Positions 6,704 to 32,076 of a stretch of DNA of 43,734 nt are shown here, one piece after another. The first letter of the stretch is position 1, and each line of letters starts with the position of its first letter. The position numbers and the translations under genes were made by a program. The notes beneath the pieces were generated by a model. The model was not told the origin of the DNA. It was given only the letters and a program-made list of their open reading frames with translations, and made no database searches. The DNA comes from Actinomycetes bacterium (GTDB lineage Bacteria > Actinomycetota > Actinomycetes > DATJPE01), in contig DATJPE010000058.1 in assembly GCA_035506535.1 (NCBI GenBank), positions 1 to 43,734 of the forward strand, in the 5' to 3' direction.

Positions 6704-7644
6704 GCCAGCGCCCGCTCGCGTGCCGCGACGACGCGGGTGCCCACCTGGGCGTCCGGCTGCAGCGCTTCGACGAGGTGGTCGGCCGAGGTGATCACTGCCC
6801 GGTCCCCACCGGCGCGCACGAACGCCAGTGCCGCCTCGACCTTCGGGCCCATGCTGCCCGGCGGGAACTGGCCCCTCGCGTGGTGCCGGGCCATGGCGTC
6901 CACGCTCACCTCGCCGAGCGCCCGGGCCCGCGGGGTGCCGAAGTCCACCATCACCGCGTCGACACCGGTGACAAGGACCAGTGCGGTGGCGTCGAGCTCC
7001 ACCGCGATCGCGGCCGCCGCCCGGTCCTTGTCGATGACCGCGTCGACCGCTGCGAGCGACGGGGCGACCGCGACACCGCCGCCACCGGCGGCGAGCACGA
7101 TCTTGCCGGCGCGCAGCAGCGCCTTGACCGAGGAGACCTCGAGCAGGCCGAGCGGGCGCGGTGACGCGACCACGCGGCGGTAGCCGCGGCCCGCGTCCTC
7201 GACCAGCACCCAGCCACGCTCGCGGGCCAGCCAGGCGGCGTTCTTCTCGTCGAAGAACGGACCGATGGGCTTGGTCGGCGCGCCGAACGCGGGATCGTCG
7301 GGGTCGACCAGGACGTGGGAGACCAGCGCGACCGCCGCACCCGCGCCGCGACGCGCGTCGACGGCCCGGACCAGGGCGGAGCCGAGCTGCCCCTGCGTCA
7401 TGGCGCCGAGGGTGTACAGCGGCTGGGCCGGGACCAGCTCGGCGCCGCCCTCCTGCTGGATGGACAGGTTCCCGACCTGCGGCCCGTTGCCGTGGACCAC
7501 CACCACCCGCCAGCCGGCAGCGGCCGCGGCACAGATCCCCTCGGCCATCGCGGCGGCGTTCGCCTCGATGTCCGGGGCGGCGCCGAGCTGGCCGGGAAGG
7601 GTCAGGGCGTTCCCTCCGACCGCGACGACCATAACCTTGCTCAC
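6700..7644 (-). CDS. arcC: Carbamate kinase
   Basis: The 314-residue amino-acid-kinase-fold enzyme interconverts ATP + carbamate and ADP + carbamoyl phosphate. Signatures are MVVAVGGNAL (5-14), VVVVHGNGPQVGNL (47-60), the PTKPIGPFF region typical of carbamate kinases, AAGGGGVAV and VIDKDRAAA, ending with PPGSMGPKVEAA and VITSADHL. I chose the GTG at 7644, because the normal family N-terminus begins right there and a GGAG lies upstream. The frame is open to a GTG at 7683. It is first of the minus-strand operon. Coupled to FdrA, it would either harvest ATP from carbamoyl phosphate or supply it. Confidence 0.95.
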   Translation of the reverse strand: MSKVMVVAVGGNALTLPGQLGAAPDIEANAAAMAEGICAAAAAGWRVVVVHGNGPQVGNLSIQQEGGAELVPAQPLYTLGAMTQGQLGSALVRAVDARRGAGAAVALVSHVLVDPDDPAFGAPTKPIGPFFDEKNAAWLARERGWVLVEDAGRGYRRVVASPRPLGLLEVSSVKALLRAGKIVLAAGGGGVAVAPSLAAVDAVIDKDRAAAAIAVELDATALVLVTGVDAVMVDFGTPRARALGEVSVDAMARHHARGQFPPGSMGPKVEAALAFVRAGGDRAVITSADHLVEALQPDAQVGTRVVAARERALA

Positions 7645-7712
7645 GACAGGCCCGGCTCCGCTCTCTTCGATCAACGCGTTCACGATAGTGATTCAACTGG
7701 ACAGGAAAATCA

Positions 7713-8372
7713 ATGACTGGGGACCCGGATCTGCAATATCCGACATGGTCCGACGAGGACGCCAGCCGCGCGCGCCAGCTGGCCGTCATCTGGCGCGCAG
7801 CTGCGGAACGCCTCTTCGCGACGGCTGCCGGCGAGCCCGAGCTCTACCGACGCACCGTCCTGCTGGTCAGCGCACTGGTCGACCGACTGCGCGGCGAGCC
7901 CCCGGCACTCGCCTCGCTGCTGACCGCTTGGACCGAGCGTGACCGGGTGCTGTCCGAGGTGGCGGAAGGTCAGCCCGACCTGGCCGCTCCCGCGGACCCC
8001 GAGGCGACCCTCGCCGCGGCCTTCGCCCTGCGCTACAACGAGGTCGTGATGGAGGTTGCCGCGACCAGGAGACTGCGACTGCTGTCAACGTATGACGAAC
8101 CGGGAACCTGGGTGGTGCTCGAGGAGCAGGGCCTGTCGTCAGGGGACCCCTTCCACGCCTACCGGCGGGTGGAGGCCCACGTCGGGACGGGGCGGGCCCT
8201 GTTGGTGACCACCGTGCCGGCCGAGGACCTGGCGGCCTGCACCCACGAGGTCACCCGGGGGCGCGTGGACCTCTCGACCGGCGGGCTCCACTGGGACGAG
8301 GTCTCGACCCGATACGACGACGAGGCGGCACGGGAGAGCGCGGTCGCCGCCGCGAAGGTGGCCGACCCGTGA
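7713..8372 (+). CDS. Conserved-looking protein of unknown function (219 aa)
   Basis: I do not recognise this family. It is soluble with no signal peptide or membrane segment. The N-terminal half (about 1-105) looks all-helical (SRARQLAVIWRAAAERLF, TVLLVSALVDRLRG, LASLLTAWTERDRVL). The C-terminal half reads as mixed alpha/beta (LRLLSTYDEPGTWVVLEEQG, ALLVTTVPAEDLAAC). The ATG at 7713 follows an AGGAAAA stretch, and the region between it and the divergent carbamate kinase is short. It leads the plus-strand unit with the radical SAM protein and the acyltransferase, so it may belong to the same pathway. It lacks the glycine-rich motifs of DUF2877, so it is not an evident AllH. Confidence 0.75.
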   Translation: MTGDPDLQYPTWSDEDASRARQLAVIWRAAAERLFATAAGEPELYRRTVLLVSALVDRLRGEPPALASLLTAWTERDRVLSEVAEGQPDLAAPADPEATLAAAFALRYNEVVMEVAATRRLRLLSTYDEPGTWVVLEEQGLSSGDPFHAYRRVEAHVGTGRALLVTTVPAEDLAACTHEVTRGRVDLSTGGLHWDEVSTRYDDEAARESAVAAAKVADP

Positions 8373-8429
8373 GCCGCGGACCCGGCCGGGGCGTGTCGGC
8401 GAACCCTGGTGCCGGCCATCGGCGTTTCC

Positions 8430-8435
8430 TATAGT
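8430..8435 (+). promoter_or_regulatory. Candidate -10 element before the radical SAM gene
   Basis: TATAGT, close to the actinobacterial SigA -10 consensus, lies 45 bases before the ATG at 8481 in an otherwise GC-rich gap of 108 bases. No clear -35 box is present at the usual distance. It may give the radical SAM/acyltransferase pair its own transcription start. Confidence 0.4.
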
Positions 8436-8480
8436 GGACGCGCAGGCAGTACCCGGCCGTGTCACGCCCAAGGAGCCGTC

Positions 8481-9671
8481 ATGTCCGACACGTTAGACCG
8501 GCCAACAGATCTCGACCCCGCCATCGACCCCACCGAGCTCGCCTCGCTGCTCGCCCAGCTGCAGAGCGCCGGCCTGCGGGTGGTCGGCGACATCGGCGCT
8601 CGGACCGGCGGTGCCGGGCCCGCCGACGCGGGCATGCTGTGGATCGAGGGGGCGCCGGTCACCGTCCCGACCGCAGCCGACTACGTCGCCGACTCGCCGT
8701 ACTCCCTGCGACCGGAGGACGAGGGCTTCGGCGTCTACCACGGGCACACCAGGGTGGCCGGTGCCGAGCTGGCGCCGCGCCCGCGCTACTACGACCTGGA
8801 GACCGCGGACGGCATCCCGTACTGGAAGATCGCGCTGATGCACCTGGACTCCATGGCCAGCACGGTCCTGCAGACCTGCGCCTACTGGGGGACCTCGGAC
8901 CAGTGCACCTTCTGCGGCATCGGCCTCTCGCTCGCCGGCGGCCGGACCATCGCCAAGAAGACCCCGGCGATGCTGGCCGAGGTCTCAGTCGCCGCCCGCG
9001 ACCTGGACGGCGCGGTCGACGTGACCCTGACCACCGGCAGCACGGCGACGCCCGACCGTGGCGCCCTCTACGTCGGCAGATGCGCGGGCGCGGTCAAGGA
9101 GGCCTCCGGGCTGCCGGTGCAGGTCCAGTTCGAGCCGCCGTCGGACCTGTCGGTGATCGACGCCGTCCACGACCTCGGCGTCGACTCAGTGGGGATCCAC
9201 GTCGAGTCCTTCGACCCGCAGGTGCTGGCCCGGGTGGCACCCGGCAAGGCCCGCTGGGGGCTCGAGGCCTACTTCGCGGCCTGGGAGCACGCGGTTGGGG
9301 TGTTCGGCGAGGGCCAGGTGTCGACCTACGTGATCCTCGGGATGGGCGAAGACCCCGAGGTGACCGTGGCGGGCTGTCGCCGAGCCGTCGACCTCGGCGT
9401 CTACCCCTTCATCGTCCCGCTGCGACCGGTGCCCGGCAGCCTGATGGCCGATGCCCACCCGCCGACCCCGGACTACGTGGAGAGCATCTACCGACAGGTC
9501 GTCCCCGCCATGACGGCGCGCGGCCTGTCCGCCGCCAAGGTGCGCGCCGGCTGCGCCCGGTGCCAGGCCTGCTCGGGCATGGCCGCGGTCGAGCGCGCCC
9601 ACGGCGGCTTCGCGGGGCACACGGAAGGAGGCATCGCCGATGGCCGTCGCAGCCTCCCGCTCGCGTACTGA
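8481..9671 (+). CDS. Radical SAM protein, MSMEG_0568 type (NitD-like)
   Basis: The 396-residue radical SAM enzyme belongs to the group found in Nit1C clusters (NitD; MSMEG_0568). The cluster-binding motif is unusual: CAYWGTSDQCTFC, with C133, C142 and C145 (C-x8-C-x2-C). It is followed by the SAM-binding glycine-rich region LTTGSTATPDRG (183-194), QVQFEPP (214-220) and VILGMGED (284-291). A second cysteine group CARCQAC (C358, C361, C364) near the C-terminus could hold an auxiliary iron-sulfur cluster. The ATG at 8481 has an AAGGAG 5 bases upstream. The reaction is unknown; the family is linked genetically to cyanide or nitrile nitrogen use. It overlaps the next gene by 32 bases. Confidence 0.92.
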   Translation: MSDTLDRPTDLDPAIDPTELASLLAQLQSAGLRVVGDIGARTGGAGPADAGMLWIEGAPVTVPTAADYVADSPYSLRPEDEGFGVYHGHTRVAGAELAPRPRYYDLETADGIPYWKIALMHLDSMASTVLQTCAYWGTSDQCTFCGIGLSLAGGRTIAKKTPAMLAEVSVAARDLDGAVDVTLTTGSTATPDRGALYVGRCAGAVKEASGLPVQVQFEPPSDLSVIDAVHDLGVDSVGIHVESFDPQVLARVAPGKARWGLEAYFAAWEHAVGVFGEGQVSTYVILGMGEDPEVTVAGCRRAVDLGVYPFIVPLRPVPGSLMADAHPPTPDYVESIYRQVVPAMTARGLSAAKVRAGCARCQACSGMAAVERAHGGFAGHTEGGIADGRRSLPLAY

Positions 9672-10170
9672 GCCCCACGCACGGTCGGGCGGGGATGCTC
9701 CGGCCTCGTCCGCCCACGACCTGACCTGCCGCCTCGTGGGCGGCCCGAGCGAGCTCGCCACCCACCACCAGATCCGGGAAGCCGTGTTCGTCACCGAACA
9801 GGCACTGTTCAGCAGCACCGACCGGGACCTCGTCGACGACCGGGCCGAGACCCTCCACGTGCTGGGCTACGTCGACGGCGCACCGGTCGGCACCGTCCGG
9901 CTCTACCCGATCGCGCCGGAGCTGCCGGGCGAGGTGTTGTGGAAGGGTGACCGGCTCGCGGTGCTCGCGGCGTACCGGCAGGCCGGGCTCGGCGCACCCC
10001 TGGTCCGCTTCGCCGTGGCCGGCGCGACCCGGCTCGGCGGTGACCGGATGGTCGCCCACGTGCAGCTCGAGAACGTCGTATTCTTCCGCCGGCTGGGCTG
10101 GGACCCGGTCGGTGACCCGGCGCCCTACGTCGGCGTCGAGCACCAGAAGATGAGCATCGGACTCCGGTGA
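9640..10170 (+). CDS. GNAT-family acyltransferase, MSMEG_0567/Sll0786 type (NitE-like)
   Basis: The 176-residue protein has about 28 extra N-terminal residues before the GNAT fold begins at DLTCRLVGG. The block HHQIREAVFVTEQALF resembles the N-terminal helix of acyltransferases of the autoinducer-synthase/Sll0786 type. WKGDRLAVLAAYRQAGLGAPLVRFAV is the acyl-CoA pyrophosphate loop, and HVQLENVVFFRRLGW is the usual C-terminal motif B. A GGAAGGAG lies 9 bases before the ATG at 9640, inside the radical SAM gene. It follows the radical SAM gene as NitE follows NitD in Nit1C clusters. The acyl donor and acceptor are unknown. Confidence 0.88.
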   Translation: MAVAASRSRTEPHARSGGDAPASSAHDLTCRLVGGPSELATHHQIREAVFVTEQALFSSTDRDLVDDRAETLHVLGYVDGAPVGTVRLYPIAPELPGEVLWKGDRLAVLAAYRQAGLGAPLVRFAVAGATRLGGDRMVAHVQLENVVFFRRLGWDPVGDPAPYVGVEHQKMSIGLR

Positions 10171-10205
10171 CCGGCACCGGCGCGCCATCCGCGTCAGCCG
10201 ACCCG

Positions 10206-11165
10206 TCACGGGCGGAGCCGGGTGACCGCCTCCCGGGCGAGGTCGAAGACCGTGACGACCTCCTCGTCCCGGCGCAACCGCACCAAGCCGGTGGTGTCCA
10301 GCGTCCCCACCTGGGCCGCGGCCAGGTCCCGGTCATGGAACGCGGAGCAGCACTCCGCGACCCGCTCGGGCGCTGCCAGCACAAGGAACACGAGGCATGG
10401 GAAGCACCCCAGCCAGTCGGGCAGCGCGACGTCCACCGGCACTGGCAGCAGCGACAGGTCCACCTCGACGCCGAGTCTGGTGGGCTCGAGCAGCATCGCA
10501 AGGCTGCCCACCAGCCCCGCCATGCTGACGTCCTTCGCCGCCTGGGCCGCCCCGGAACGAGCCAGCGCCGGCAGGAGCCGGACGTCCCCGGCGAGGCGAC
10601 CCGCGCGCTCCTCGAAGGACGGGAAGAACGGGAAGTCGGAACGCAGCCGACCCCGCACACAGCCAGCAACCAGCAACGCCTGGCCCGGCGCCGCGCGGTT
10701 AGCCGAGAGGACGGCGTCCGCGCGGCCCAGCCCGAACGCCGCGAGGCTCGGCGGGCCGTCGCTCTCGGTCAGGTGCCCACCGACGATCGGCACGTCGTAG
10801 GCCTCCCCCGCCCACTTCAGCCCCTCGAGCGCCCGCCGAGTCACCTCTCGGGTGCCGACGAGGGTGTCGACGATGGCCAGCGGTCGCGCGCCCATCGCCG
10901 CCAGGTCGTTGACGTTGGCGAGCACGGCACCGATCCCCGCGCCGTAGGGGTCGGCAGCCACGAAGCCGGGCAACATCGCCTCACCCCCGACGACGAGGTT
11001 GCGTCCCTCGTCCTCGACGACCGCGCCGTCGTCACCAGGACCGCCCCACCAGTCGCCCGGGCCGAACACGTCGGCCACGACTCCGATGACCCGCTTTGCC
11101 TGCACTCCCGGCAGCTCACGCAGGTGGCGCGCCAGCCCGGCGAGATCGACGTCGTGCACGGTCAC
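10206..11165 (-). CDS. AIR-synthase-related protein, Sll0787 type (NitF-like)
   Basis: The 319-residue protein has a PurM-like ATP-binding fold like AIR synthase, selenophosphate synthase and HypE. GPGDDGAVV (43-51) gives the paired aspartates, followed by ANVNDLAAMGARPLAIVDTL (83-102) and VPIVGGHLT (125-133). The C-terminal domain has QAAKDVSMAGLVGSLAMLLEPT and ends LRRDEEVVTVFDLAREAV. It matches the Sll0787 component that follows the acyltransferase in Nit1C clusters. Here it is inverted, converging on that gene with only 35 bases between the stops. Start is GTG at 11165. It probably phosphorylates a carboxylate or amide group with ATP; the substrate is unknown. Confidence 0.88.
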   Translation of the reverse strand: MTVHDVDLAGLARHLRELPGVQAKRVIGVVADVFGPGDWWGGPGDDGAVVEDEGRNLVVGGEAMLPGFVAADPYGAGIGAVLANVNDLAAMGARPLAIVDTLVGTREVTRRALEGLKWAGEAYDVPIVGGHLTESDGPPSLAAFGLGRADAVLSANRAAPGQALLVAGCVRGRLRSDFPFFPSFEERAGRLAGDVRLLPALARSGAAQAAKDVSMAGLVGSLAMLLEPTRLGVEVDLSLLPVPVDVALPDWLGCFPCLVFLVLAAPERVAECCSAFHDRDLAAAQVGTLDTTGLVRLRRDEEVVTVFDLAREAVTRLRP

Positions 11166-11245
11166 TGGTCGCTCGTTTCGCGCAGGTCGTGGACGGTGGC
11201 AGGCTCGGGCGCACGCGCGGTCACCCTAACGAAGGAGCTGCAGCT

Positions 11246-12073
11246 GTGACCATGCAGCCCTCGGGCGCGACCGTCGGGGACACCACGCAGCCGGTACGCC
11301 CTGACCGGCCGTCCCTCCCCGGCTTCCTGGACCTGCCGGAGCGCACCGAGAAGCCGCGCGACCACGGGGTCTGCCACGTGCTCGACGGCGGGCTGTCCGT
11401 GGCCGAGGTCGAGCAACGGCTCGCGGCGGCGGGGCCGTACGTCGACATCTGGAAGTTCGGGTGGGGCACCGCGTACGTCGACCCGGCGGTCGTCGACAAG
11501 GTGGAGCTGCTGCGCGAGCACGGTGTCAAGGCCTGCACCGGCGGCACATTGCTGGAGATCGCCTGGCGCAAGGGCGCCGCCCACCGGCTCATGGAGTGGG
11601 CGGACGAGGTGGGGTTCGAATGCATGGAGGTGTCGTGCGGCTCGGTCCCGATCTCCCGTGACGTGAAGAGCCTGATGATCCAGACCGTCGCCAAGACGTT
11701 CACCGTGCTCGCCGAGGTGGGCAGCAAGGATGCCTCGGCCGAGGTCGATCCCAAGCAATGGGCGGCCGACGCCGCGGCCGACCGGGACGCCGGCGCCCAC
11801 TGGGTCGTGACCGAGGGACGCCAGAGCGGCACCGTCGGTCTGTTCAACGCCGACGGATCGGTCCGGTCATGGGTGGCCGACGCGGTCGTGGCCGCCGTGG
11901 GAGTGGAGACGGTGCTCTTCGAGGCGCCGCAGCGCGCCCAGCAAGCGTGGCTGATCAACCACTTCGGTGCCAACGTGAACCTCGGCAACATCGACCCCGC
12001 GGAGGTGCTCGGGGTGGAGTGCCTGCGACTTGGCCTCCGCTCCGACACGATCCGACCCGACGCCGGGCCATGA
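11246..12073 (+). CDS. Phosphosulfolactate synthase (ComA) family protein
   Basis: The 275-residue TIM-barrel protein is of the ComA/XcbB1 family, which adds sulfite to phosphoenolpyruvate to give phosphosulfolactate, the first step to coenzyme M. Family blocks are YVDIWKFGWGTA (65-76), KACTGGTLLE (95-104), FTVLAEVGSKD (152-162), TEGRQSGTVGLF (189-200), LFEAPQRAQQAWLI (224-237) and GANVNLGNI (241-249). One oddity: the block I recall as EISDGS reads EVSCGS (128-133). GAAGGAG at 11231-11237 sits 8 bases before the GTG at 11246; an ATG at 11252 is the alternative. First gene of a six-gene overlapping operon. Confidence 0.9.
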   Translation: MTMQPSGATVGDTTQPVRPDRPSLPGFLDLPERTEKPRDHGVCHVLDGGLSVAEVEQRLAAAGPYVDIWKFGWGTAYVDPAVVDKVELLREHGVKACTGGTLLEIAWRKGAAHRLMEWADEVGFECMEVSCGSVPISRDVKSLMIQTVAKTFTVLAEVGSKDASAEVDPKQWAADAAADRDAGAHWVVTEGRQSGTVGLFNADGSVRSWVADAVVAAVGVETVLFEAPQRAQQAWLINHFGANVNLGNIDPAEVLGVECLRLGLRSDTIRPDAGP

Positions 12074-12981
12074 TCCCCACCCAGTACCGCACCGTCGCGT
12101 TCACCGACGTCCCCGTGCCGCTCGACGAGGAGTCCCTGCGCGCCCACCTGCTGCTGCGGGCCGCCTACCGACGGACCCGGTACGTCGTCGCCCGCAACGG
12201 TTCCGAGGTCGCCGTCGTGGAGCTGGTCAAGGCTGCCGAGGAGGAGCTGTTCGAGCCGATCGTCGAGGTGCGGCTGCTCGCGGGACCCCGCGAGACGGTC
12301 CTGCTGGACCGCCCGGACGTCGACACCGCCGTTCCGAGCCAGCTCGCCCGGGTCGCCGAGGAGGTGCCGAACGCACGGTGCGTCGTGGTGCACGGGCGGT
12401 ACCAGCACGTCAACTTCGTGCTGGACCTCCACCCGAGGCGGGTGCACGTGCTCGACGTGGCTCCGCCGTGGCCGGCGAAGCTCGTCGACCAGGTGCACCG
12501 CGTGGCGGACACGGCCGAGGACCTGCCGGCGACCCTGGTCGTACCCGAGGTGATCGACCTGCAGGACCTGGTGTCGGCGGCGCCGCCGGCCGGCCACTAC
12601 CTGATGCCGTGCCGCGGCGGTGGGGTCGAGGTGCCCGGAGCGACGATCTCGTACCTCGACCAGGTGCCAACGGCGGTGCCCGGGTGGACCCTGGTCGGCT
12701 GCACGCGGTCCAGGCAGATCCACGATCACTTCTACCCGGAGCTCGCTGCCGGCCTCGACCAGATCGACATCTGCCCGCTCGAGCGCGCCCGGCTCACCGC
12801 GCAGCCCGGCGACGCCGTACGCCTCACGAAGTGCTGCCAGCTCGAGGACCACATCGAGACCCAGGACGACATCGTGGTGGTTCCGTGGGGATCCAGCTTC
12901 GAGCTGGTGCGCGAGGGGCTGTACGCGGCCTCCGACCTCGCCGCCGACCGCGACCGTGCCACCCGATCGGCGACGCCGTGA
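12070..12981 (+). CDS. Cysteine-rich protein of unknown function in the ComA operon (303 aa)
   Basis: I cannot assign this soluble 303-residue protein. Its most distinctive parts are CVVVHGRYQHVNFVLDL (104-120), VLDVAPPWPAKL (127-138), YLMPCRGGGVEVPGA (177-191), GCTRSRQIHDHFYPEL (210-225), DICPLERARLT (233-243) and RLTKCCQLEDH (251-261). The cysteines C181, C211, C235, C255 and C256 all fall in these motif-like stretches, suggesting a metal, Fe-S or persulfide site. It overlaps the ComA gene by ATGA and the next lyase by GTGA, so it is translationally coupled to the pathway. A thiolation or reduction role in making a thiol product is a plausible inference, not shown. Confidence 0.85.
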   Translation: MIPTQYRTVAFTDVPVPLDEESLRAHLLLRAAYRRTRYVVARNGSEVAVVELVKAAEEELFEPIVEVRLLAGPRETVLLDRPDVDTAVPSQLARVAEEVPNARCVVVHGRYQHVNFVLDLHPRRVHVLDVAPPWPAKLVDQVHRVADTAEDLPATLVVPEVIDLQDLVSAAPPAGHYLMPCRGGGVEVPGATISYLDQVPTAVPGWTLVGCTRSRQIHDHFYPELAAGLDQIDICPLERARLTAQPGDAVRLTKCCQLEDHIETQDDIVVVPWGSSFELVREGLYAASDLAADRDRATRSATP

Positions 12982-14180
12982 GCGCCCGGATCACCGACTC
13001 GCTCTCCTACGCCCACCTCTGGGGGACCGAGGAGGTCCGCGGTCTGCTCGAGGAGAGGGCCCGGCTGCAGGGTTGGCTCGACGTGCTGGCCGCGCTGGCG
13101 CGGGCCCAGGCGGCCGAGGGGCTGGTGACCGAGCGCGCCGCGGACCTGATCGCCACGCATGCCAGGGTCGAGCGGCTGGACCTCGAGCGCATCGCCGAGG
13201 GGACCCGGGCCACCGGGCATTCCACGCTCGGGCTGATCCAGGAGCTGCGCCGGGTGCTGCCGCTGGAGGCAGCCGAGGTGGTCTACCTCGGCGCCACGGT
13301 CCAGGACGTCACCGACACCTGGACCTCGTTGCTGATGCGCTCGGTCGGCGGGATCGTGTGGCGCGACCTGCGGGTCTTCGAGGCCGCGCTGCTGGCGCTG
13401 GCCGAGGCGCAGCGGGAGACCTTGATCGCCGGACGCACCCACGGACAACCCGGCGCGGCCGCCACCTTCGGGTGGAAGGTCGCGAGCTGGGCCGACGAGG
13501 TCCACCGCCACCTGGAACGGCTGCGCGAGGGGGCCCCGCGATGGCTGGTGGTCCAGCTCGGCGGCGGGATCGGCACCCTGGTCGCCTACGGCGAGCGTGG
13601 GCTCGGCGTGCGGCGCCGATTCGCCGAGCTGCTCGACCTGGGCGACCCCGGGATCTCCTGGCTCTCCGCCCGTGACCGCGGAGCGGAGTTCACGGGGGTG
13701 CTGACGCTGGTCGCCGGCACGCTGGCCCGGGTCGGCAACGAGGTCTACGAGCTGCAGCGTCCCGAGATCGGTGAACTGGCCGAGCCGCTCGCGGAGGCGA
13801 CCGTCGGCAGCATCACGATGCACCACAAGCGCAACCCCGAGATCAGCGAGCACCTGGACACCCTGGCCCGGCTGACCCGGGCCAACGCCGCAGTCATGTG
13901 GGAGTCGATGGTCGCCTCGCACGAGCGCGACGGCAGGGCCTGGAAGGCCGAATGGGTCGCGCTGCCGGAAGTTTGCCTGCTGACCACGACCGCGCTGAGC
14001 TTGGCGGTGCGGCTCGTCGAAGGGCTGGTCGTGGACCCCGACCGGATGCGGCAGAACCTCAGTGCTCACCTGTCCGGGACGCAGTACCCCGACGACCCCG
14101 GATCGGCAGTGCAGATGACCGACTTCGTGCTGGCCCGGGCCCGGGCCCGCCGCGCCCAGGAGCTGCCGACGTGGCAGTGA
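12978..14180 (+). CDS. Aspartase/fumarase-superfamily lyase (adenylosuccinate lyase-like)
   Basis: The 400-residue lyase shows the three conserved superfamily regions: TGHSTLGLI with GATVQDVTDT (79-87, 105-114), AGRTHGQPGAAATFGWK (151-167) and GSITMHHKRNPEISEHL (277-293). The last is the flexible loop holding the catalytic serine (S278). In most relatives this loop reads GSSxMPxKxNP; here HH replaces the proline region. The nearest architecture is adenylosuccinate lyase / carboxymuconate cycloisomerase. In bacterial coenzyme M synthesis, XcbC1 from this superfamily eliminates phosphate from phosphosulfolactate; this protein or the lyase at 15163 could do that. GTG at 12978 overlaps the upstream stop as GTGA. 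Confidence 0.9.
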   Translation: MSARITDSLSYAHLWGTEEVRGLLEERARLQGWLDVLAALARAQAAEGLVTERAADLIATHARVERLDLERIAEGTRATGHSTLGLIQELRRVLPLEAAEVVYLGATVQDVTDTWTSLLMRSVGGIVWRDLRVFEAALLALAEAQRETLIAGRTHGQPGAAATFGWKVASWADEVHRHLERLREGAPRWLVVQLGGGIGTLVAYGERGLGVRRRFAELLDLGDPGISWLSARDRGAEFTGVLTLVAGTLARVGNEVYELQRPEIGELAEPLAEATVGSITMHHKRNPEISEHLDTLARLTRANAAVMWESMVASHERDGRAWKAEWVALPEVCLLTTTALSLAVRLVEGLVVDPDRMRQNLSAHLSGTQYPDDPGSAVQMTDFVLARARARRAQELPTWQ

Positions 14181-15166
14181 CTGGACCACGGACCCTGGCC
14201 CGCGTCGAGCTGGCGCGACTGCCGACGCCCCTCCAGGAGGCGCCGCGGCTGGCCGCTGCGCTCGGTGTCGCCGGCCGGCTGCTCGTCAAGCGCGACGACC
14301 TGACCGGATTCGCGTTCGCCGGCAACAAGGCGCGGCCGCTGGAGATGATCCTCGCCGACGCGCGCCTGCACGACGCCGACGTGCTGGTCACCGGCGGTGC
14401 GCCGTCGTCGAACTTCTGCGCCGCCGCCGCAGCCGCGGCGCGCTGGGCGGGGATGCTCTGCGTGCTGGTCTACGCGGGCACCGCAGAGCCCGCCGGACCG
14501 GTGCACCCGAACCTGGCGGCGGCGCGGCACTGGGGAGCAGCCGTGCGGTGGAGCGGCAGCAGCGAGCGCGACTCCGTCGACGGCCGCCTCGATGTCGTCG
14601 CCGCCGAGCTCACCGGCACCGGGCGCACGCCGTACGTCGTGCCGCGCGGCGCTGCGAGCCCGCTCGGGGCCGTCGGGTTCCTGGCTGCCGCTCATGAGCT
14701 CGTCGACCAGCTCGAGGCGACCGGCCCGGATGTCCGTGGGAACGTCGCCGCGGTGATCGCTACCGGCTCCGGGGGGAGCACCGCCGGCCTCCTGGCCGCC
14801 ACCGGCGCGCAGCCACGGCTGCGCGTCCTGGGCGCCGCGGTGAGCCGCCCCCCCGACGAGACCACGCCACGGATCCGGTCCCTCGCCGAGGCCGCTGCCG
14901 GACTGGCCGGGGCACCGGCTCCGGACCACTCGCGCCTGCAGCTGATCGACGCCCGTGGACCCGGGCACGGCCTGCCGTCCGCCGAGGGCAGCGCCGCAGC
15001 CGATCTCGCGCTGCAGACCGAAGGGCTGGTCCTCGACCCCGCCTACACCGCCAAGGCGCTGGCCGCCCTGCCGGAGCTGCTCGGTGAGCGTCGCCGGGAC
15101 CCCGGTGCCTGCACGGTGTTCTGGCACACCGGTGGGCTTCTCGACAGCGTTGCGGAGTGGCTGTGA
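14177..15166 (+). CDS. PLP-dependent enzyme, D-cysteine desulfhydrase/ACC deaminase fold
   Basis: The 329-residue fold-type II PLP enzyme opens with LARLPTPLQEAPRLAAAL (12-29). LLVKRDDLTGFAFAGNKARPLE (35-56) carries the PLP lysine K51 in GNK. TGGAPSSNFCAAAAAAA (72-88) is the loop around the substrate carboxylate, and ATGSGGSTAGL (195-205) is the phosphate-binding turn. Relatives eliminate sulfide or ammonia from D-cysteine or ACC. In bacterial coenzyme M operons the PLP member (XcbE1) belongs to this fold. The GTGA overlap at 14177 matches the pattern of the operon; a GTG at 14171 is also in frame. Confidence 0.9.
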   Translation: MTGPRTLARVELARLPTPLQEAPRLAAALGVAGRLLVKRDDLTGFAFAGNKARPLEMILADARLHDADVLVTGGAPSSNFCAAAAAAARWAGMLCVLVYAGTAEPAGPVHPNLAAARHWGAAVRWSGSSERDSVDGRLDVVAAELTGTGRTPYVVPRGAASPLGAVGFLAAAHELVDQLEATGPDVRGNVAAVIATGSGGSTAGLLAATGAQPRLRVLGAAVSRPPDETTPRIRSLAEAAAGLAGAPAPDHSRLQLIDARGPGHGLPSAEGSAAADLALQTEGLVLDPAYTAKALAALPELLGERRRDPGACTVFWHTGGLLDSVAEWL

Positions 15167-16668
15167 CCGACGAGACCTACACCGACCGGCACGGCCCTCC
15201 TGTCGAGGGGCCGGCCCAGGAGCTGATCGACAGCGGGTTCGCGCTGGAGAACGCCGACGCGCCGCTGCTGCACCGCGGCCTCAACCTCGCCGACCTGGCA
15301 CACGTCCTCGACCTCCACGAACGCGGTGTCGTCGCGCGGGGGCCCGCGCAGCGGCTGCTCCGTGAGGTCCTCGAGGCCTGTCGGACGCCGGCCGCGGAGT
15401 TCCCGTACGACCCGGCCTACGGGGAGCCGTACAACTCCCGCGAACGCCACTTCGCCGCCCGCATCGGCAACGACGCCGGCTGGCTGCACGCCGGGCGGCC
15501 GCGTCGCGAGGCCGTCCGGATCGCGTTGCGGCTCAACGTCCGCAGCGTGCTGGCGGACCTCGTCGCGGCTGCTGGTGATCTGGCCACGTCGCTGGCGACG
15601 GTTGCTGGAGCCCACAGCCGCACCTGGCTGCCGGACCAGACCTACCTGCAGCACGCGCAGCCCTCGACGTTCGGGCACTACCTGGCCAGCTTCAGCTTCC
15701 CGGTGCTGCGCGACGGGGAGCGGCTGCTGGACGACCTGAGCTGGGTCAACACCAGCCCCGGCGGCGCCGGCTGCGTCAACGGCAGCCGGCTGCTGGACGA
15801 CCGCACCCGGGTCGCCTCGCTGCTCGGATTCGACGGCTACATCGAGCACACCCGCGACGCGATGTGGCAGATCGACGGACTGATCAGCGCTCTCGCCGCC
15901 TCGGCGAGCCTGCTCACCACCCAGAGCAAGCTGGCCGAGGACCTCGAGATCTGGGCGAGCAGCGAGTTCGACTACGTCACAGTCGCCGACGGGTACAGCC
16001 GGTCCAGCGTGTTGATGCCCCAGAAGCGCAACCCCTACGCGCTGTCGATCATCCGCGGCGCCGCCGGCACCCTCATCGGGCGGCTGACCGGGTTCCTGTC
16101 GGTGAGCAAGAGCCCGTCGGCGCGAAGCGACAACCTCATCTACGCCTACGGCGAGGTGCCCCGAGCCCTCGAGCTCGCGCTGCGCACGACCCGGCTCAGC
16201 AACGGGGTCATCACCACCCTCACGATCAACGCAGAGAGGATGTGGGCCTCCTTGGAGTCCAGCTTCTGCCAGGCCACCGACCTCGCCGAGTACGTCATGC
16301 AGACGTGCGCGGTCGACTACCGCACGGCGTACCGGGTCGTCGGCATCGCCGTCAGACGGGCCAGCCGTGAGGGACTTCGCGGCATCGACCTCGACGGGAA
16401 CCGCCTGGATGCCGCGGCGGTGGAGTACTTCGGCCGGCCACTCGGCCTGACGGGGCGGGACCTGTCCGAGGTCCTGGACCCGCGGTGCATCGTCGAGAGC
16501 CGGGTGCTCCCGGGTGGCGCGGCGCCGCCTGTGGTGGAGGCGATGACGCAGCGGTGCGCCGCCGCGGCCTCGACGTTGGCCGAGCGGGCCCGCACGGCAC
16601 GCGCGGGCTTCCAGACCGCCGAGGACGAGCTGGTGGCCCTGGCCGAGGAGTTCGTCGGCCATGGCTGA
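15163..16668 (+). CDS. Argininosuccinate lyase-like aspartase/fumarase-superfamily lyase
   Basis: The 501-residue lyase is organised like argininosuccinate lyase. Blocks: ENADAPLLHRGLNLADLAHVL (29-49), a PYNSRERH segment (89-96), TYLQHAQPSTFGHYL (160-174) with the catalytic-region histidine, SPGGAGCVNGSRLLDDR (198-214) and the loop YSRSSVLMPQKRNPYAL (278-294), which keeps the standard serine-MPxKxNP signature. The C-terminal part (ASLESSFCQATDLAEYVMQ) corresponds to the argininosuccinate lyase tail. It is the second superfamily member in this operon, as in the xcbC1/xcbD1 pair of coenzyme M clusters. Arginine synthesis is unlikely because no other arg gene is nearby. Start GTG 15163 in GTGA overlap. 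Confidence 0.9.
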   Translation: MTDETYTDRHGPPVEGPAQELIDSGFALENADAPLLHRGLNLADLAHVLDLHERGVVARGPAQRLLREVLEACRTPAAEFPYDPAYGEPYNSRERHFAARIGNDAGWLHAGRPRREAVRIALRLNVRSVLADLVAAAGDLATSLATVAGAHSRTWLPDQTYLQHAQPSTFGHYLASFSFPVLRDGERLLDDLSWVNTSPGGAGCVNGSRLLDDRTRVASLLGFDGYIEHTRDAMWQIDGLISALAASASLLTTQSKLAEDLEIWASSEFDYVTVADGYSRSSVLMPQKRNPYALSIIRGAAGTLIGRLTGFLSVSKSPSARSDNLIYAYGEVPRALELALRTTRLSNGVITTLTINAERMWASLESSFCQATDLAEYVMQTCAVDYRTAYRVVGIAVRRASREGLRGIDLDGNRLDAAAVEYFGRPLGLTGRDLSEVLDPRCIVESRVLPGGAAPPVVEAMTQRCAAAASTLAERARTARAGFQTAEDELVALAEEFVGHG

Positions 16669-18082
16669 GCGACCGGTGCCCGCGCTCCCGGACCACCCGC
16701 GGGTGGTCAATGTCGGCCTGCCGCTGTTCGCCGAGGCGGTGCGCAGCCAGGGGGCCGACGTGGCGTCGGTGGACTGGCGGATCCCCGCCGACGGGGACCC
16801 GGCCGTGGTCGCGGCCCTGCGCCGGCTGTCCGGCCCACGCGCCGGTGTCGTCGACACCGCCAACACCGAGGTGCTCCGGCGGCTGGACCGTGGGGCGCCC
16901 GAGCTGGTCGACGTCGTGCCCGCCGGCTCGGTGATCCCGGTCCTCGCGGACGGCCGGGTGCTGCTGCACTGCGGCCCGCCGATCGAGGTCGACCGACTGG
17001 TCGATCCGTTGCGGCGCTCCCTCGCCGCAGCCGCCTGCGCCGAAGGGTGGGCCGACTCGCCGGACCGGGCCAAGGCGATGCTTGACGCGGGCGAGCTGCA
17101 GTTGGAGTCGGCGAACGATCACGGGGTCGTGGTGCCGATGGCGACCGCGATGGGACCGCGCACCCCCGTGTGGGTGGTGACCCTCGCAGACGCCGACGTC
17201 ACGACGTTCGCGCCGGTCGGCCAGGGCTCGGGCGACGTCGCCTGGTTCGGGAGGGACACCCCGGGGGCGGTGGACCGGCTGGTGCTGCTGCGGGACGCGG
17301 TCGGGCCGGTGCTGGGCCAGGCGGTGCGCACGTACGGACCGATCGATGTGATGGCACTGGCCGCGCAGGCGGTCGCGATGGGTGACGACGTGCACGTACG
17401 CACCCAGGCGGCCACCAACCTGCTGCTGCGCAACCTGCTGCCCGCGCTCGTCGGTGGCGACCATCCGCGGCGCGTCGAGGTGGCCTCCTTCCTGTCGGCG
17501 AACCACCTGCTCTTCCTGAGCCTGGCGATGGCCGCCGCCCGCGCCCTGACGACCTGGGCCGGGCAGGTCGAGCACACCTCGGTCGTCCTCGGGATGACCC
17601 GCAATGGGACCGACTTCGCCGCGCGCCTGGGGCGAGGATCCTCCTGGCACCGGACGGCTGCGCCCCCGGTCGGGGCGGCGCTGTACCAGCCCGGCCACGG
17701 AGCGGAGGACGCCGCGCCGGACATCGGCGACAGCGCCGTGCTCGAGCTGGTGGGGCTGGGGGGAGCGGCCGCCGCCGGCTCCCCCGCGGTCGCTCAGCTG
17801 GTCGGCGGCACCATGGCCGATGCCGCCCGGCTGACCGAGGACCTGGCCATGGTGTGCGTGGGTCGGTCCACCCGGTTCACGATCCCGTTCTGGGGGATGC
17901 GCGGCTCCCCGCTCGCCGTCGATGCCCGGGCCGTCGTCGAGCTCGGCATCACCCCGCAGATCACGACCGGCATCCTGCACAGCTCCGACGGCTCCGGCCA
18001 GATCGGCGCCGGCGTGGCCTCAGCACCCCTGGACGTGTTCACCAGCGCGTTGCTGGAGCTCGACGAGTCGCTGCGACCGTGA
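16661..18082 (+). CDS. DUF1116 protein (AllG/YlbE-like), partner of FdrA
   Basis: The 473-residue protein is of the DUF1116 family, found next to FdrA in purine/allantoin clusters and, in E. coli, a component (AllG) of oxamate carbamoyltransferase. Recognisable stretches are NVGLPLFAEAVRSQGADVASVDWRIPA near the N-terminus, CGPPIEV, QAVAMGDDVHVRTQAATNLLL, LSANHLLFLSLAMAAARAL, VLGMTRNGTDFAAR and TRFTIPFWGMRGSPLAVDAR, ending ILHSSDGSGQIGAGVASAPLDVF. The ATG at 16661 overlaps the upstream lyase end by 8 bases. Being the last gene of the ComA operon while FdrA sits in a different operon ties the two units into one pathway. Confidence 0.9.
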   Translation: MAERPVPALPDHPRVVNVGLPLFAEAVRSQGADVASVDWRIPADGDPAVVAALRRLSGPRAGVVDTANTEVLRRLDRGAPELVDVVPAGSVIPVLADGRVLLHCGPPIEVDRLVDPLRRSLAAAACAEGWADSPDRAKAMLDAGELQLESANDHGVVVPMATAMGPRTPVWVVTLADADVTTFAPVGQGSGDVAWFGRDTPGAVDRLVLLRDAVGPVLGQAVRTYGPIDVMALAAQAVAMGDDVHVRTQAATNLLLRNLLPALVGGDHPRRVEVASFLSANHLLFLSLAMAAARALTTWAGQVEHTSVVLGMTRNGTDFAARLGRGSSWHRTAAPPVGAALYQPGHGAEDAAPDIGDSAVLELVGLGGAAAAGSPAVAQLVGGTMADAARLTEDLAMVCVGRSTRFTIPFWGMRGSPLAVDARAVVELGITPQITTGILHSSDGSGQIGAGVASAPLDVFTSALLELDESLRP

Positions 18083-18088: not shown

Positions 18089-18493
18089 TTACCCGCGCTG
18101 GACGTCGAGGGTCGGGGTCGTCGTCAGGGTGCGGGAGACGTAACACACCCGGTTCGCCGACTCCATCAACAGTGCGAGCTGTTCGTCGTCCAGGCTGCTC
18201 CGCACCCGCATGGTCAACGACGCGAAGCTCGGCCCGTCGTACTCCCCCTGGGCGGTGACCTCGAGGTCGGCTGGGAGCTCGATGCCGCGCTTACGGGCCG
18301 ACCAGGCCAGAGCCAGGACGTAGCAGGAGGCGAGCGAGCCCAGCAGGTACTCCGTCGGCATCGGCCCAGCGGAGGTGCCGCCGGACGTCTCCGGCTCGTC
18401 CACGACGAACTGGAACAGCCCCACGGTGACGGTGGCCTTCAGGCCGCCCTCCCAGCGGGCGACCACCTCTTTGGACGCTCCACCTCGTGCCAT
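18089..18493 (-). CDS. OsmC-family protein (short, two-cysteine)
   Basis: The 134-residue OsmC-fold protein keeps both redox cysteines, in LLGSLASCYVLALAW and NRVCYVSRTLTTTP. It could therefore reduce organic hydroperoxides or, like other small members, handle reactive sulfur species. Start is the ATG at 18493, directly behind AGGAGGAG; the frame extends to 18526 without support. It is at the end of the minus-strand unit headed by the flavoprotein and converges with DUF1116 with 6 bases between stops. A strong hairpin separates it from the upstream amidohydrolase, so it may be expressed at a lower or separately controlled level. Confidence 0.88.
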   Translation of the reverse strand: MARGGASKEVVARWEGGLKATVTVGLFQFVVDEPETSGGTSAGPMPTEYLLGSLASCYVLALAWSARKRGIELPADLEVTAQGEYDGPSFASLTMRVRSSLDDEQLALLMESANRVCYVSRTLTTTPTLDVQRG

Positions 18494-18530
18494 CGACTCC
18501 TCCTGTCGCCGCCCGCCTGGGCGCAAGCCA

Positions 18531-18586: not shown

Positions 18587-19423
18587 TCAGCCGTACACGC
18601 GGTCGTAGTTCTCGGAGAACACCATCCGGCCCAGCTCGGTGTCCCCTCCGGTGGCCTCGACCATGCGGTAGAACTCCCCCGCGTAGTCGCTCCACGGCTG
18701 GTCGGTGGCGAACAGGACCCGGTCGCCACCGATCCCGCGCTTGTCGATCTCGCGGGCCAGCCACAACGGCGCGAAGCCCACCGACCAGGTCATGTCGGTG
18801 TAGACCTTCTTGCCTGCGTCGATCCAGTCGAAGAACCGGCTGCCGGCCAGCTTGATGTGGCCGCTCACGCCGCCACCGAAGTGGACGATGTGCAGCGGCG
18901 TCCGGTCGGCATACCGATCCACCAGGACACCGATCTTGTCGATGTCCGACTGCGCTCCCGGCGAGGAGTGGACATGGACGACCAAGCCGTGGTCGTTGGC
19001 TGCGGCGAAGATCTTGTCGAGCTGGGTCAGGCACTGCTCGTCGTCGACCGAGCCGCCGAGCAGAAAACTGATCTTGAGGGCCTTGACAGGTTCCTCGCCC
19101 GCCAGTCTCAGTGCCGCGTCTGTCATCTCGGCGTCCTGGGGCCGGGGCGAGCACCACAGGGCGCAGACGAGCCGGTCGCTGCTCCCGGCCGCCTCCAGCG
19201 TCGGCTCGTTGAGCGCGAAGGAGGCACCGGCATCAGGAACGCCGTAGTTGGGGATGAGCAGCGCGCGCTCGGTCCCCTCCGCGTCCATGTCGGCGAGCAC
19301 CTCGGCGACCGTGCTCCGGGCGTTGACGTCGGGGTTGACCGGCGGCCCCCCGTAGAAGGGGAACGCTGGGAGCACCCCGAAGTGCCGGTGAGCGTCGATG
19401 TGACGAGTCGGGGCCTTCGGCAT
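18587..19423 (-). CDS. Amidohydrolase-2 family metal-dependent hydrolase
   Basis: The 278-residue TIM-barrel hydrolase has HIDAHRHFG (8-16) with the metal-binding HxH pair H12/H14. It also has VKALKISF (113-120), VVHVHSSPG (148-156), LHIVHFGGG (177-185) and LFATDQPWSDY (237-247) with the conserved aspartate D241. Family members hydrolyse or decarboxylate carboxylates and lactones. ATG at 19423 overlaps the upstream stop as TGATG; the frame open to 19465 lies inside the neighbour. It occupies a place beside the Sll0783-like gene where Nit1C clusters carry a nitrilase, so it may replace that hydrolytic step. That is inference. Confidence 0.88.
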   Translation of the reverse strand: MPKAPTRHIDAHRHFGVLPAFPFYGGPPVNPDVNARSTVAEVLADMDAEGTERALLIPNYGVPDAGASFALNEPTLEAAGSSDRLVCALWCSPRPQDAEMTDAALRLAGEEPVKALKISFLLGGSVDDEQCLTQLDKIFAAANDHGLVVHVHSSPGAQSDIDKIGVLVDRYADRTPLHIVHFGGGVSGHIKLAGSRFFDWIDAGKKVYTDMTWSVGFAPLWLAREIDKRGIGGDRVLFATDQPWSDYAGEFYRMVEATGGDTELGRMVFSENYDRVYG

Positions 19424-19914
19424 CACACAGTCCAGGTGTTGAGCTGGAAGTGGCCTTCCTTCCACGCGGTGAGCGCTGCGTCGAGCACGTCGAGGGGGTT
19501 GAACGCCTGGATCCCGGGGATCAGGTCGTCCTCGCGCATCCCGTAGAGGGCGCCCATCGCGAACCGGCAGGCGTGGATCGTGGCGCCTTCGTCCATCAGG
19601 GTCTTGAGCTGGCGGTTGACCGCGAGGTTGCCCGGGAAGCCCTCGGTTCCGACCTTCGGGTAGCCGCGGCCGGCGGCGCCGAGCAGGACACCGGGGCCGT
19701 ACAGGACGATGGTGACCTTGAACCCCTTACGTACCAGGCGGGTCGCGGTCAACAGGTTGACCAGGGCCACGGACCCCTCGAACGGCACCGTGTGGATGAA
19801 GACGGTCGCCTTCTGACCTTCCTCGGCCTGGATGTCGGGGAACACCTTCTCGCTGGTGTCCCAGTTGACATCGCCTTCTTGCGGAGTTGCGACAGAAACG
19901 GTCTGGCTGGACAT
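19423..19914 (-). CDS. Sll0783/MSMEG_0572-type nitrogen-starvation response protein (NitB-like)
   Basis: The 163-residue protein has a DsrE-like fold with the family-defining block FIHTVPFEGSVALVNLLTATRL (39-60). VTIVLYGPGVLLGAAGRGYP (67-86), HACRFAMGALYG (114-125; C116) and LIPGIQAFNPLDVLDAAL (131-148) follow, and it ends LNTWTV. I recognise this as the Sll0783/MSMEG_0572 family, the first gene of Nit1C clusters. The Synechocystis member is induced by nitrogen starvation and needed for polyhydroxybutyrate accumulation; the biochemical role is unknown. ATG at 19914 follows AAGGAG. It is coupled to the amidohydrolase (TGATG). Confidence 0.9.
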   Translation of the reverse strand: MSSQTVSVATPQEGDVNWDTSEKVFPDIQAEEGQKATVFIHTVPFEGSVALVNLLTATRLVRKGFKVTIVLYGPGVLLGAAGRGYPKVGTEGFPGNLAVNRQLKTLMDEGATIHACRFAMGALYGMREDDLIPGIQAFNPLDVLDAALTAWKEGHFQLNTWTV

Positions 19915-19988
19915 GCGACTCCTTCTTCGGTTGTGGTGGGGGTGGCTCTCATCGGCCGTGGGGCCGGTGGGGTCGCGGGTGGCGGAGG

Positions 19989-20243
19989 TCAGAAGACCGG
20001 CCCCTTGGGCCGAGGGGGCGGCGGCCAGGACTTGCGGTGGCTCCCGGGCATCCGGGCGATCATCGCCGCGCGCAGCTTCACCGGCAGCCGGTGAAAGACC
20101 GGCACGTAGACCTCGCGCCAGAACCGCTCCACTCCTCGTGGCGCGGGCGGACGGTTGGCCCCGAGCTTCTCGCCGATCGTGTCCATCGCCTCGACCATCA
20201 GGTAGTGCTCGGAAGTGCGGCGCACCCACTGGGTGAGGCTCAT
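19989..20243 (-). CDS. Small protein of unknown function (84 aa)
   Basis: This 84-residue basic protein is unrecognised. It starts MSLTQWVRRTSEHYLMVEAMDTIG, has an aromatic middle (ERFWREVYVPVFHRLPVKLRAAMIARM) and a proline/lysine-rich end (KSWPPPPRPKGPVF). The ATG at 20243 overlaps the flavoprotein stop by 4 bases (ATGA), which strongly supports translation. Placed between the flavoprotein and the Sll0783-like gene, it may be an accessory subunit of one of them. Confidence 0.75.
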   Translation of the reverse strand: MSLTQWVRRTSEHYLMVEAMDTIGEKLGANRPPAPRGVERFWREVYVPVFHRLPVKLRAAMIARMPGSHRKSWPPPPRPKGPVF

Positions 20244-21577
20244 GACGACCGCTGGGCCAGCAGGGCCTGGGCGGCCAGGGCGATCGGCTCGTTGAGCGCC
20301 CCGATCGGCGGGCTGTAGACGTTCTCCATCGTGGCCAGCTCGTTGACGGTGATCCCGGTCCGTACGCACATGGCAAGGAAGTCGGCGCGCTCCTTGATGC
20401 CCTCGCCACCCACCATCTGGGCGCCGATCAGCCTCAGGTCGTCGGGGTTGGCGAGCAGCTTGACCCGGACCTGCTTGACGTCGGGGTAGTACCGGGCCCG
20501 CGAGATGCCCTGCGCGTAGCCGACCACGAACGGGATGCCGAGGGCGGTCGCCAACGTCTCGCTGAAGGAGACCCCACCGATCATCCACTTGCCGGCAACC
20601 ATCCCCCACGGGACATAGACGGGGCTGTAGTGCCGGACCCCGCCGGCTGCGGTGACACCCGCGGTCTTGCCCTGCGCGTAGGCGTGGCTGCCGGAGAGTC
20701 CCTGGATCGGGACGTTGGAGACCCCGTGGGGGATCTCAGTGCAGTCACCGGCCGCGTACACATCACGCAGCGACGTCCGCATCTGGTCGTCGACGATGAT
20801 GCCGCCACTCATCCCGGTCTTGACCCCCGCGGCGAGCGCGAGCGCAGTGTTGGCCTCCTTGTGCGTCGCGGGGACGACCAGATCGGCGGGGATCTCGCCC
20901 CCGGTGGTGGCCACGCTGGTCACCTTGCCGCCGTGGCCCTTGAAGGCCGTGACCTTGGTGTTGAAGTGCAGGTGGACCCCCATCTCCTCCCAGGACTCCT
21001 GCACCGGCGCCATGATGTCCGGGTCGGTGGCCATCGACATCCCCCATGGATTGGGGTCGACGAGATGGGTCTCGATGCCCCGATGGGCGAGCGCCGTGAC
21101 CATCTCGGCCCCGAGCGGGGTGCACTCGTCGACGACCGCGGCCTTGACGTCGTTGAGCACGACGTCCCACTCCATCGCGCGTCGGATGTTCTTGACGTAG
21201 TAGATGCCGCCGAGGTCGCCGCCGGGAACGCCCGGGTCGGCGTAGTTGAACCCGGTGGCCAGGACGAGTGAGTCGTAGGGCTCGGTCTTGCCGTCGCCCG
21301 TGGTGACCGTCTTGGCCGTGGGGTCGAAGGACGCCACCGACGTCTCGTACCGGATGTCGAGCCCCTGGTCGACGTAGGCCTGCTTGGTGGCCAGGAACAG
21401 GTTCTCGAAGGAGGGGATCTCCTTGCCGTGCACGTACGGGATCCCGCAGGGGCTGTAGGCGGCGTCCTCGAACTCGGTGAAGACGGTGATCTCGGCCTCC
21501 GGATCGACCCCCTTGGCAGCGCCCGCGGCGCCCATCCCGGCGGCGCCTCCCCCTACGATGATGATCCGTCTGGCCAC
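20240..21577 (-). CDS. FAD/NAD(P)-dependent disulfide-reductase-like flavoprotein (CoA-disulfide reductase type)
   Basis: The 445-residue flavoprotein begins with the dinucleotide motif IIIVGGGAAGMGAA (5-18). The single redox cysteine is in DAAYSPCGIPYVHG (38-51; C44), as in CoA-disulfide reductases and NADH oxidases. The second NAD region (ECTPLGAEMVTAL) has lost the usual GxGxxG. DVYAAGDCTEIPHG is the FAD-binding C-terminal motif. Relatives reduce thiol disulfides or polysulfides. GTG at 21577 has GAGGGG just upstream. Beside a ComA-type operon a role in reducing a thiol cofactor disulfide or persulfide is attractive but inferred. It heads the minus operon and is divergent from the XRE regulator. 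Confidence 0.88.
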   Translation of the reverse strand: MARRIIIVGGGAAGMGAAGAAKGVDPEAEITVFTEFEDAAYSPCGIPYVHGKEIPSFENLFLATKQAYVDQGLDIRYETSVASFDPTAKTVTTGDGKTEPYDSLVLATGFNYADPGVPGGDLGGIYYVKNIRRAMEWDVVLNDVKAAVVDECTPLGAEMVTALAHRGIETHLVDPNPWGMSMATDPDIMAPVQESWEEMGVHLHFNTKVTAFKGHGGKVTSVATTGGEIPADLVVPATHKEANTALALAAGVKTGMSGGIIVDDQMRTSLRDVYAAGDCTEIPHGVSNVPIQGLSGSHAYAQGKTAGVTAAGGVRHYSPVYVPWGMVAGKWMIGGVSFSETLATALGIPFVVGYAQGISRARYYPDVKQVRVKLLANPDDLRLIGAQMVGGEGIKERADFLAMCVRTGITVNELATMENVYSPPIGALNEPIALAAQALLAQRSS

Positions 21578-21615
21578 GATCGATCCCCTCAAGGGTCTTG
21601 GGCTCGACATTGCGC

Positions 21616-23811: not shown

Positions 23812-23929
23812 GACCGCCCACCTCCTCCCCAGGAATCGTCGCCCCTTCAGGATGCTCGCACCGGCCCCGCCGAGGAGCCTGCACCGGCCGAGCCGGACTG
23901 AACCGTCGGTCAGGATAGGGTCGGGGCTC

Positions 23930-26380: not shown

Positions 26381-26421
26381 CGCCGTACCCCGGCGCCAAC
26401 CAGGTCGGGCCACGCTTCGTG

Positions 26422-26437: not shown

Positions 26438-26490
26438 AAAATAGTAGGGTCTGCGTCAGCCGACTTCCCGCGCGAGCGTCAGGAGTGACC

Positions 26491-32074: not shown

Positions 32075-32076
32075 CG

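Follow-up and report, generated by a model that had tools for sequence, protein, structure and literature searches.

A coenzyme M-type biosynthetic operon embedded in a conserved cluster of nitrile- and carbamoyl-related genes in an actinomycete

Bacterial coenzyme M (CoM) biosynthesis is known from Xanthobacter autotrophicus Py2, Nocardioides sp. JS614 and Mycolicibacterium chubuense NBB4, and CoM itself has been described for alkene metabolism in bacteria and for alkane and methane metabolism in archaea (PMC12068725). Two other described systems bear on the locus reported here: allantoin/oxalurate breakdown, which uses the FdrA-AllG-AllH oxamate carbamoyltransferase together with carbamate kinase, and the Nit1C cluster (nitBCDEFGH; MSMEG_0565-0572/sll0783-0787), which is required for cyanide assimilation in Pseudomonas (PMC11049912). 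We analyzed a 43,734-nucleotide contig of an Actinomycetes bacterium (DATJPE010000058.1, assembly GCA_035506535.1), called the window throughout, in which an operon encodes the same five families as the three CoM systems (comA-xcbA-xcbD-xcbE-xcbC), in the gene order of JS614 and NBB4 and with conserved residues kept. Unlike the alkene systems, the window neighborhood contains no epoxyalkane:CoM transferase (EaCoMT), 2-ketopropyl-CoM carboxylase/oxidoreductase or CoM dehydrogenases, and instead has FdrA/AllG, carbamate kinase, Nit1C-type genes and OsmC. It shares with Nit1C the radical SAM, GNAT, AIRS, DsrE and glycosyltransferase genes but lacks the Nit1 (NitC) nitrilase, none being found in the window, and adds the xcb genes, FdrA, AllG, carbamate kinase and a disulfide reductase. 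The FdrA, AllG and carbamate kinase families are likewise those of oxalurate breakdown, whereas the AllG subfamily of the window (at least 54% identity) is the one that follows xcb genes. This is a real, conserved system in which the Xcb genes represent a variant of an established pathway, and the combination is undescribed as far as the literature found shows; our search returned no paper that connects CoM in this sense with Nit1C, nitrile hydratase or carbamate kinase.

The five genes lie on the forward strand at 11,246-16,668, and each overlaps its neighbor by 4 nt. They encode a ComA/XcbB-type phosphosulfolactate synthase (11,246-12,073; PF02679, 267 bits), a 303-residue protein of the XcbA family, DUF7714 (12,070-12,981; NF052538, 277 bits against a curated NCBIfam cut-off of 150, and Pfam DUF7714, 272 bits against 25), an XcbD-like aspartase/fumarase lyase (12,978-14,180; NF052536, 531 bits, cut-off 600), an XcbE-like pyridoxal-phosphate enzyme of the D-cysteine desulfhydrase fold (14,177-15,166; NF052537, 247 bits, cut-off 450), and an XcbC-like enzyme of the argininosuccinate lyase family (15,163-16,668, with an alternative GTG start at 15,157; NF052535, 433 bits, cut-off 575). 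For each of the last three the named family was the best match. In Xanthobacter, XcbC performs the phosphate elimination step. The next gene, allG (16,661-18,082, forward strand; PF06545, 195 bits), encodes an AllG-type subunit of the oxamate carbamoyltransferase family and overlaps xcbC by 8 nt. The original prediction, which was made from the letters of the window, had recognized the ComA homologue, the two lyases and the pyridoxal-phosphate enzyme at these positions with overlaps of 4 bases or less, all of which agrees with the open reading frame (ORF) calls and family matches. It had regarded the 303-residue gene as an addition and had ended the operon at 16,668; that gene is in fact an XcbA-family member which overlaps both neighbors and is present in alkene-type clusters too, and allG begins before the end of xcbC. 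The genes from comA to xcbC are a translationally coupled operon that extends into allG.

Relatives were collected by scanning 84,980 species genomes with XcbC, which yielded 161. The loci described below are the best 80 of these 161 and are not a census, because both the query and the ranking favor window-like sequences; counts of locus content refer to those of the best 80 that are not of the alkene type and reach at least 20 kb, 51 in all. Alkene-type or alkene-candidate loci used for comparison were L028-L032, L059, L094 and L109. The cluster surrounding the operon, which spans about 3.9-22.3 kb of the window, is referred to here as the supercluster.

In the ComA tree, the window protein and the other supercluster ComAs form a clade with actinobacterial alkene-type ComAs (support 99), from which the Bacillus subtilis, Methanocaldococcus jannaschii and other actinobacterial ComAs are excluded; the Xanthobacter ComA also branches elsewhere. 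A YitD-like or other ComA assignment was rejected by this tree among the families included, and the concern raised in the original prediction, that the protein might group with non-CoM families, is not borne out in this tree, from which plant HSA32 is absent. A concatenated ComA-XcbA-XcbD-XcbC tree places the supercluster as sister to the actinobacterial alkene-type set (support 99). The XcbC tree put the alkene-type sequence of L059 inside the supercluster clade, but an exchange of XcbC between the two contexts is not claimed because an approximately unbiased (AU) test fails to reject one clade (p = 0.154) and the concatenated tree separates the contexts. Residues invariant among alkene-type enzymes are kept in the window at 82 of 84 positions in XcbC, 45 of 51 in ComA, 105 of 123 in XcbD, 71 of 95 in XcbE and 57 of 84 in XcbA. 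Family membership, the order of the genes, the trees and the conserved residues together give good support, by homology, for CoM synthesis by the operon, and its predicted product is probably CoM or a CoM-type thiol.

In JS614 and on both plasmids of NBB4, comA and xcbD have a relative of XcbA between them. A conserved 308-residue gene in vinyl chloride clusters has been named xcbF1 (PMC8727900) and probably belongs to the same family. Cysteines 181, 235 and 255 and His218 of XcbA are invariant, and Cys211 and Cys256 are nearly so. An AlphaFold2 model is confident (pLDDT 96.4; 61 sequences) and found no fold match in the PDB (best TM about 0.3), for which reason no function is deduced from the fold; XcbA possibly represents a new fold that holds a site formed by cysteines. 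A DUF7714 match was also present in a control genome, that of the CoM-dependent methanogen Methanosarcina acetivorans.

Supercluster partners accompany xcbC in 76 of the best 80 loci. The remaining four comprise two clear alkene-type loci (L059 and L094), one in which XcbC has only a weak EaCoMT-like neighbor (L109; 29%), and a short contig (L075). Within the 51 larger loci the most frequent partner is OsmC (48), followed by FdrA and AllG (42 each), the disulfide reductase (41), AIRS and DsrE (39 each), an XRE-cupin regulator (37), GNAT and carbamate kinase (35 each), nitrile hydratase alpha and AllH (30 each), the glycosyltransferase (28) and the radical SAM protein (26); the alkene-type and alkene-candidate loci contain none of these partners. 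Carriers include Actinomycetes, Acidimicrobiia, Ruegeria, Nitrobacter, Methylocystis and Paraburkholderia, as well as metagenome-assembled genomes labelled Acidobacteria, Chloroflexi and Dormibacterota. DUF7714 and AllG were also looked for in 396 genomes drawn from the phylum, a less biased sample. Ten carry DUF7714, and nine of these, counting the genome of the window, have supercluster genes; in the tenth, G124, the locus runs into a contig edge. AllG of the supercluster type (at least 54% identity) occurs in eight other genomes of the sample, seven of them with DUF7714 (Fisher p = 1e-12), and in the eighth, G155, the supercluster is present and the contig breaks off within xcbC. No other AllG copy in the phylum exceeds 44% identity. 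Because the gene set and its order recur in dozens of genomes, the association is not a matter of chance.

The nitrile hydratase of the relatives, whose alpha, beta and accessory subunits recur beside the operon in about 30 of the 51 loci, matches its families above the NCBIfam cut-offs (alpha, TIGR01323, 298 bits; beta, TIGR03888, 211; accessory protein, TIGR03889, 75) and is of the cobalt type, all 38 sequences carrying the metal site CTLCSC. Methylocystis and Nitrobacter join the Nit1C nitrilase set to the xcb operon (L027, 8,024-9,037; L106; L107), and on a Methylocystis iwaonis plasmid a Nit6803-family nitrilase, radical SAM, GNAT, AIRS, OsmC and FdrA genes and the whole xcb set stand side by side. 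Two further arrangements were noted among the relatives. Genes for LarE and LarB/LarC-like proteins (nickel-pincer cofactor synthesis) adjoin the cluster upstream of the operon in Pseudonocardia and its relatives (L051, L058, L069, L074, L083, L087-L092, L099, L100, L102, L110 and L112). Locus L017 (genome G052; 9,254-14,338) holds xcbA-xcbD-xcbE, an xcbC in the opposite orientation and, close by, a CitE/HpcH-like lyase; with neither the alkene nor the nitrile partner set, it is a possible third xcb context.

In the window itself, the left part of the supercluster begins on the reverse strand with an MSMEG_0565 family glycosyltransferase (3,928-5,094, start approximate; TIGR04047, 355 bits, cut-off 260), an FdrA-type subunit, which is succinyl-CoA-synthetase-like and is the partner of AllG in oxamate carbamoyltransferase (5,123-6,682, start approximate; NF004760, 395 bits, cut-off 433), and carbamate kinase (6,700-7,683; TIGR00746 arcC, 307 bits; PRK12352, 270 bits, cut-off 266). 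The NF004760 match covers residues 370-880 of a longer, 888-residue ORF (5,123-7,789), which was rejected as a single protein, its N-terminal part overlapping carbamate kinase in another frame. On the forward strand follow a 219-residue protein conserved in the cluster (7,713-8,372; 34% identical to an ORF that recurs in 20 of the 51 loci), the MSMEG_0568 family radical SAM protein corresponding to NitD of Nit1C (8,409-9,671; TIGR04043, 380 bits, cut-off 304), and the MSMEG_0567/Sll0786 family GNAT N-acetyltransferase, NitE (9,640-10,170; TIGR04045, 100 bits, cut-off 68); the sll0787 family AIR-synthase-like protein AIRS, NitF, is on the reverse strand (10,206-11,165; TIGR04049, 241 bits, under the cut-off of 321). 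Beyond allG, four reverse-strand genes encode an OsmC-type protein with both conserved cysteines (18,089-18,526; PF02566), an Amidohydrolase_2 family protein (18,587-19,465; PF04909; 71-75% identical in L033-L037), an MSMEG_0572/Sll0783 family DsrE-like nitrogen-starvation protein (19,423-19,917, start approximate; TIGR04044, 194 bits, cut-off 110), and a CoA-disulfide-reductase-like flavoprotein with redox Cys55 (20,240-21,610; TIGR03385, 232 bits, under the cut-off of 579). Among relatives, OsmC Cys68 is kept in 78 of 78 and Cys128 in 77 of 78, and Cys55 of the reductase-like protein in 51 of 55. An XRE-cupin regulator on the forward strand (21,711-22,286), 53% identical to the one recurring in the larger loci, closes the cluster. 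Farther along the window are FAD-oxidase/GcvT-type proteins of the sarcosine/dimethylglycine demethylase kind beside a CrtO-like gene (23,477-27,696), and two large TOMM kinase/cyclase-fusion-like proteins, one with a LuxR-type domain at its end (29,303-34,650).

This neighborhood suggests a use for the thiol. Nitrile hydratases produce amides, the FdrA-AllG carbamoyltransferase family yields carbamoyl phosphate, and carbamate kinase converts the latter to ATP, ammonia and CO2. It makes sense for a carbamoyl-phosphate-forming enzyme to act after a nitrile hydratase only if the cyano group sits on sulfur, nitrogen or oxygen. FdrA is related to succinyl-CoA synthetase, which converts thioesters to acyl phosphates, and because the operon would supply a thiol, we propose a cycle through a CoM thiocyanate (CoM-SCN) and S-carbamoyl-CoM. 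OsmC would oxidize CoM-SH to the disulfide, which cyanide or an equivalent would split to give CoM-SCN, disulfide cyanolysis being ordinary chemistry. CoM-SCN would be hydrated to S-carbamoyl-CoM by the cobalt nitrile hydratase in most relatives, by the Nit1C nitrilase in Methylocystis and Nitrobacter, and perhaps by the amidohydrolase in the window; the amidohydrolase is not supported as a strict replacement for nitrile hydratase, since L074 and L095 hold both. FdrA-AllG would then phosphorolyze S-carbamoyl-CoM to CoM-SH and carbamoyl phosphate, as succinyl-CoA synthetase acts on a thioester, and carbamate kinase would convert the carbamoyl phosphate to ATP, NH3 and CO2. The CoA-disulfide-reductase-like enzyme would reset the thiol and, with OsmC, set the thiol/disulfide state. 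The parts of this proposal differ in strength. A functional tie between the thiol and the nitrile/carbamoyl-phosphate module seems to us an evenly balanced proposition, and that CoM or a very close thiol-sulfonate made by the XcbA-E route carries cyano and carbamoyl groups for the neighborhood is plausible, if somewhat short of that balance. CoM-dependent nitrogen scavenging, in which a cyanide-derived cyano and then carbamoyl group on CoM is converted through FdrA-AllG and carbamate kinase to ATP, ammonia and CO2, is a tentative extension, and the exact CoM-SCN cycle, in the order given, is doubtful.

Several observations weigh against this proposal. AllH was not found in the window, and PF02979 nitrile hydratase had no match in the window's genome, although control genomes were silent for PF02979 too; the genome's five CN-hydrolase genes are all on other contigs, away from the cluster. 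Pseudomonas Nit1C genes occur without xcb, and to our knowledge FdrA/AllG are known for oxalurate and not for thiocarbamates. The cycle does not explain the roles of the radical SAM, GNAT, AIRS, DsrE and glycosyltransferase proteins. Within the operon, XcbC, XcbD and XcbE all score under their NCBIfam cut-offs, near the C-terminus XcbD is missing about 45 residues, in a region that alkene-type enzymes keep, and 11 of the 51 loci have no xcbE within 10 kb (40 have it). The XcbD deletion is common to the clade L033-L038, and an assembly error was rejected on that ground. The shortened XcbD and the missing xcbE imply that the last steps of the CoM pathway may differ.

The scores of XcbC, XcbD and XcbE and the missing xcbE, together with the partial retention of alkene-invariant residues in XcbA, would fit a drifted pathway making another sulfonate or thiol with its own role (e.g., a cysteine adduct of sulfoacrylate, sulfolactate or cysteate). 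The XcbC and XcbE cut-offs are nevertheless tight, since XcbC (378 bits) and XcbE (315 bits) from the genuine alkene cluster of JS614 also miss them (JS614 XcbD passes); the window XcbC outscores its JS614 counterpart, retains nearly all of its invariant residues, and the second Xanthobacter cluster likewise has no xcbE. We regard a drifted pathway as unlikely. An ordinary alkene or epoxide pathway, with its consumer elsewhere in the genome, would account for the Xcb families shared with Xanthobacter and JS614. The original prediction had seen no epoxyalkane:CoM transferase in the window, and this extends to the whole genome, where the best match to Xanthobacter EaCoMT has 23% identity (E = 2e-4); alkene/epoxide use was rejected on the absence of EaCoMT. 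The neighbors are also wholly unlike those of alkene-type clusters, with the same context in dozens of genomes, and this explanation is nearly refuted.

CoM might instead serve as a general redox thiol with the OsmC peroxidase and the disulfide reductase, the nitrogen genes being neighbors in a shared stress regulon and not CoM users. The position of OsmC as the most conserved partner and the frequency of a reductase with a conserved cysteine fit this explanation, but FdrA and AllG are nearly as conserved as OsmC, the translation of AllG is coupled to that of xcbC, and OsmC is absent from alkene-type clusters; it appears improbable. Much the same standing is given to a secondary metabolite bearing a sulfonate and a nitrile or carbamoyl group: the MSMEG_0565 glycosyltransferase, GNAT and radical SAM proteins, all in the cluster, could be its tailoring enzymes, yet carbamate kinase, FdrA/AllG and nitrilase or nitrile hydratase indicate breakdown, the gene set is distributed over several phyla, and the Nit1C part is the known cyanide-assimilation cluster of Pseudomonas (PMC11049912). 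Of the alternatives raised in the original prediction, CoM serving another purpose is favored over synthesis of a different sulfonate, with the product predicted from sequence. Its description of a pathway with no visible CoM consumer stands as regards EaCoMT and not as regards the surroundings, which point to a candidate use of the thiol.

If these operons make CoM, most of the sampled actinobacterial carriers of the route use it for something other than alkenes. The neighborhood names candidate CoM users (FdrA-AllG, nitrile hydratase, OsmC and the disulfide reductase), and the question is approachable in cultured strains, among them Pseudonocardia dioxanivorans CB1190, Ruegeria sp. THAF57, Geodermatophilus ruber and Methylocystis iwaonis. 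Were the proposal correct, bacterial CoM synthesis would often serve a purpose other than alkene oxidation, in several phyla, and a small-thiol cofactor would enter the use of cyanide and nitrile nitrogen.

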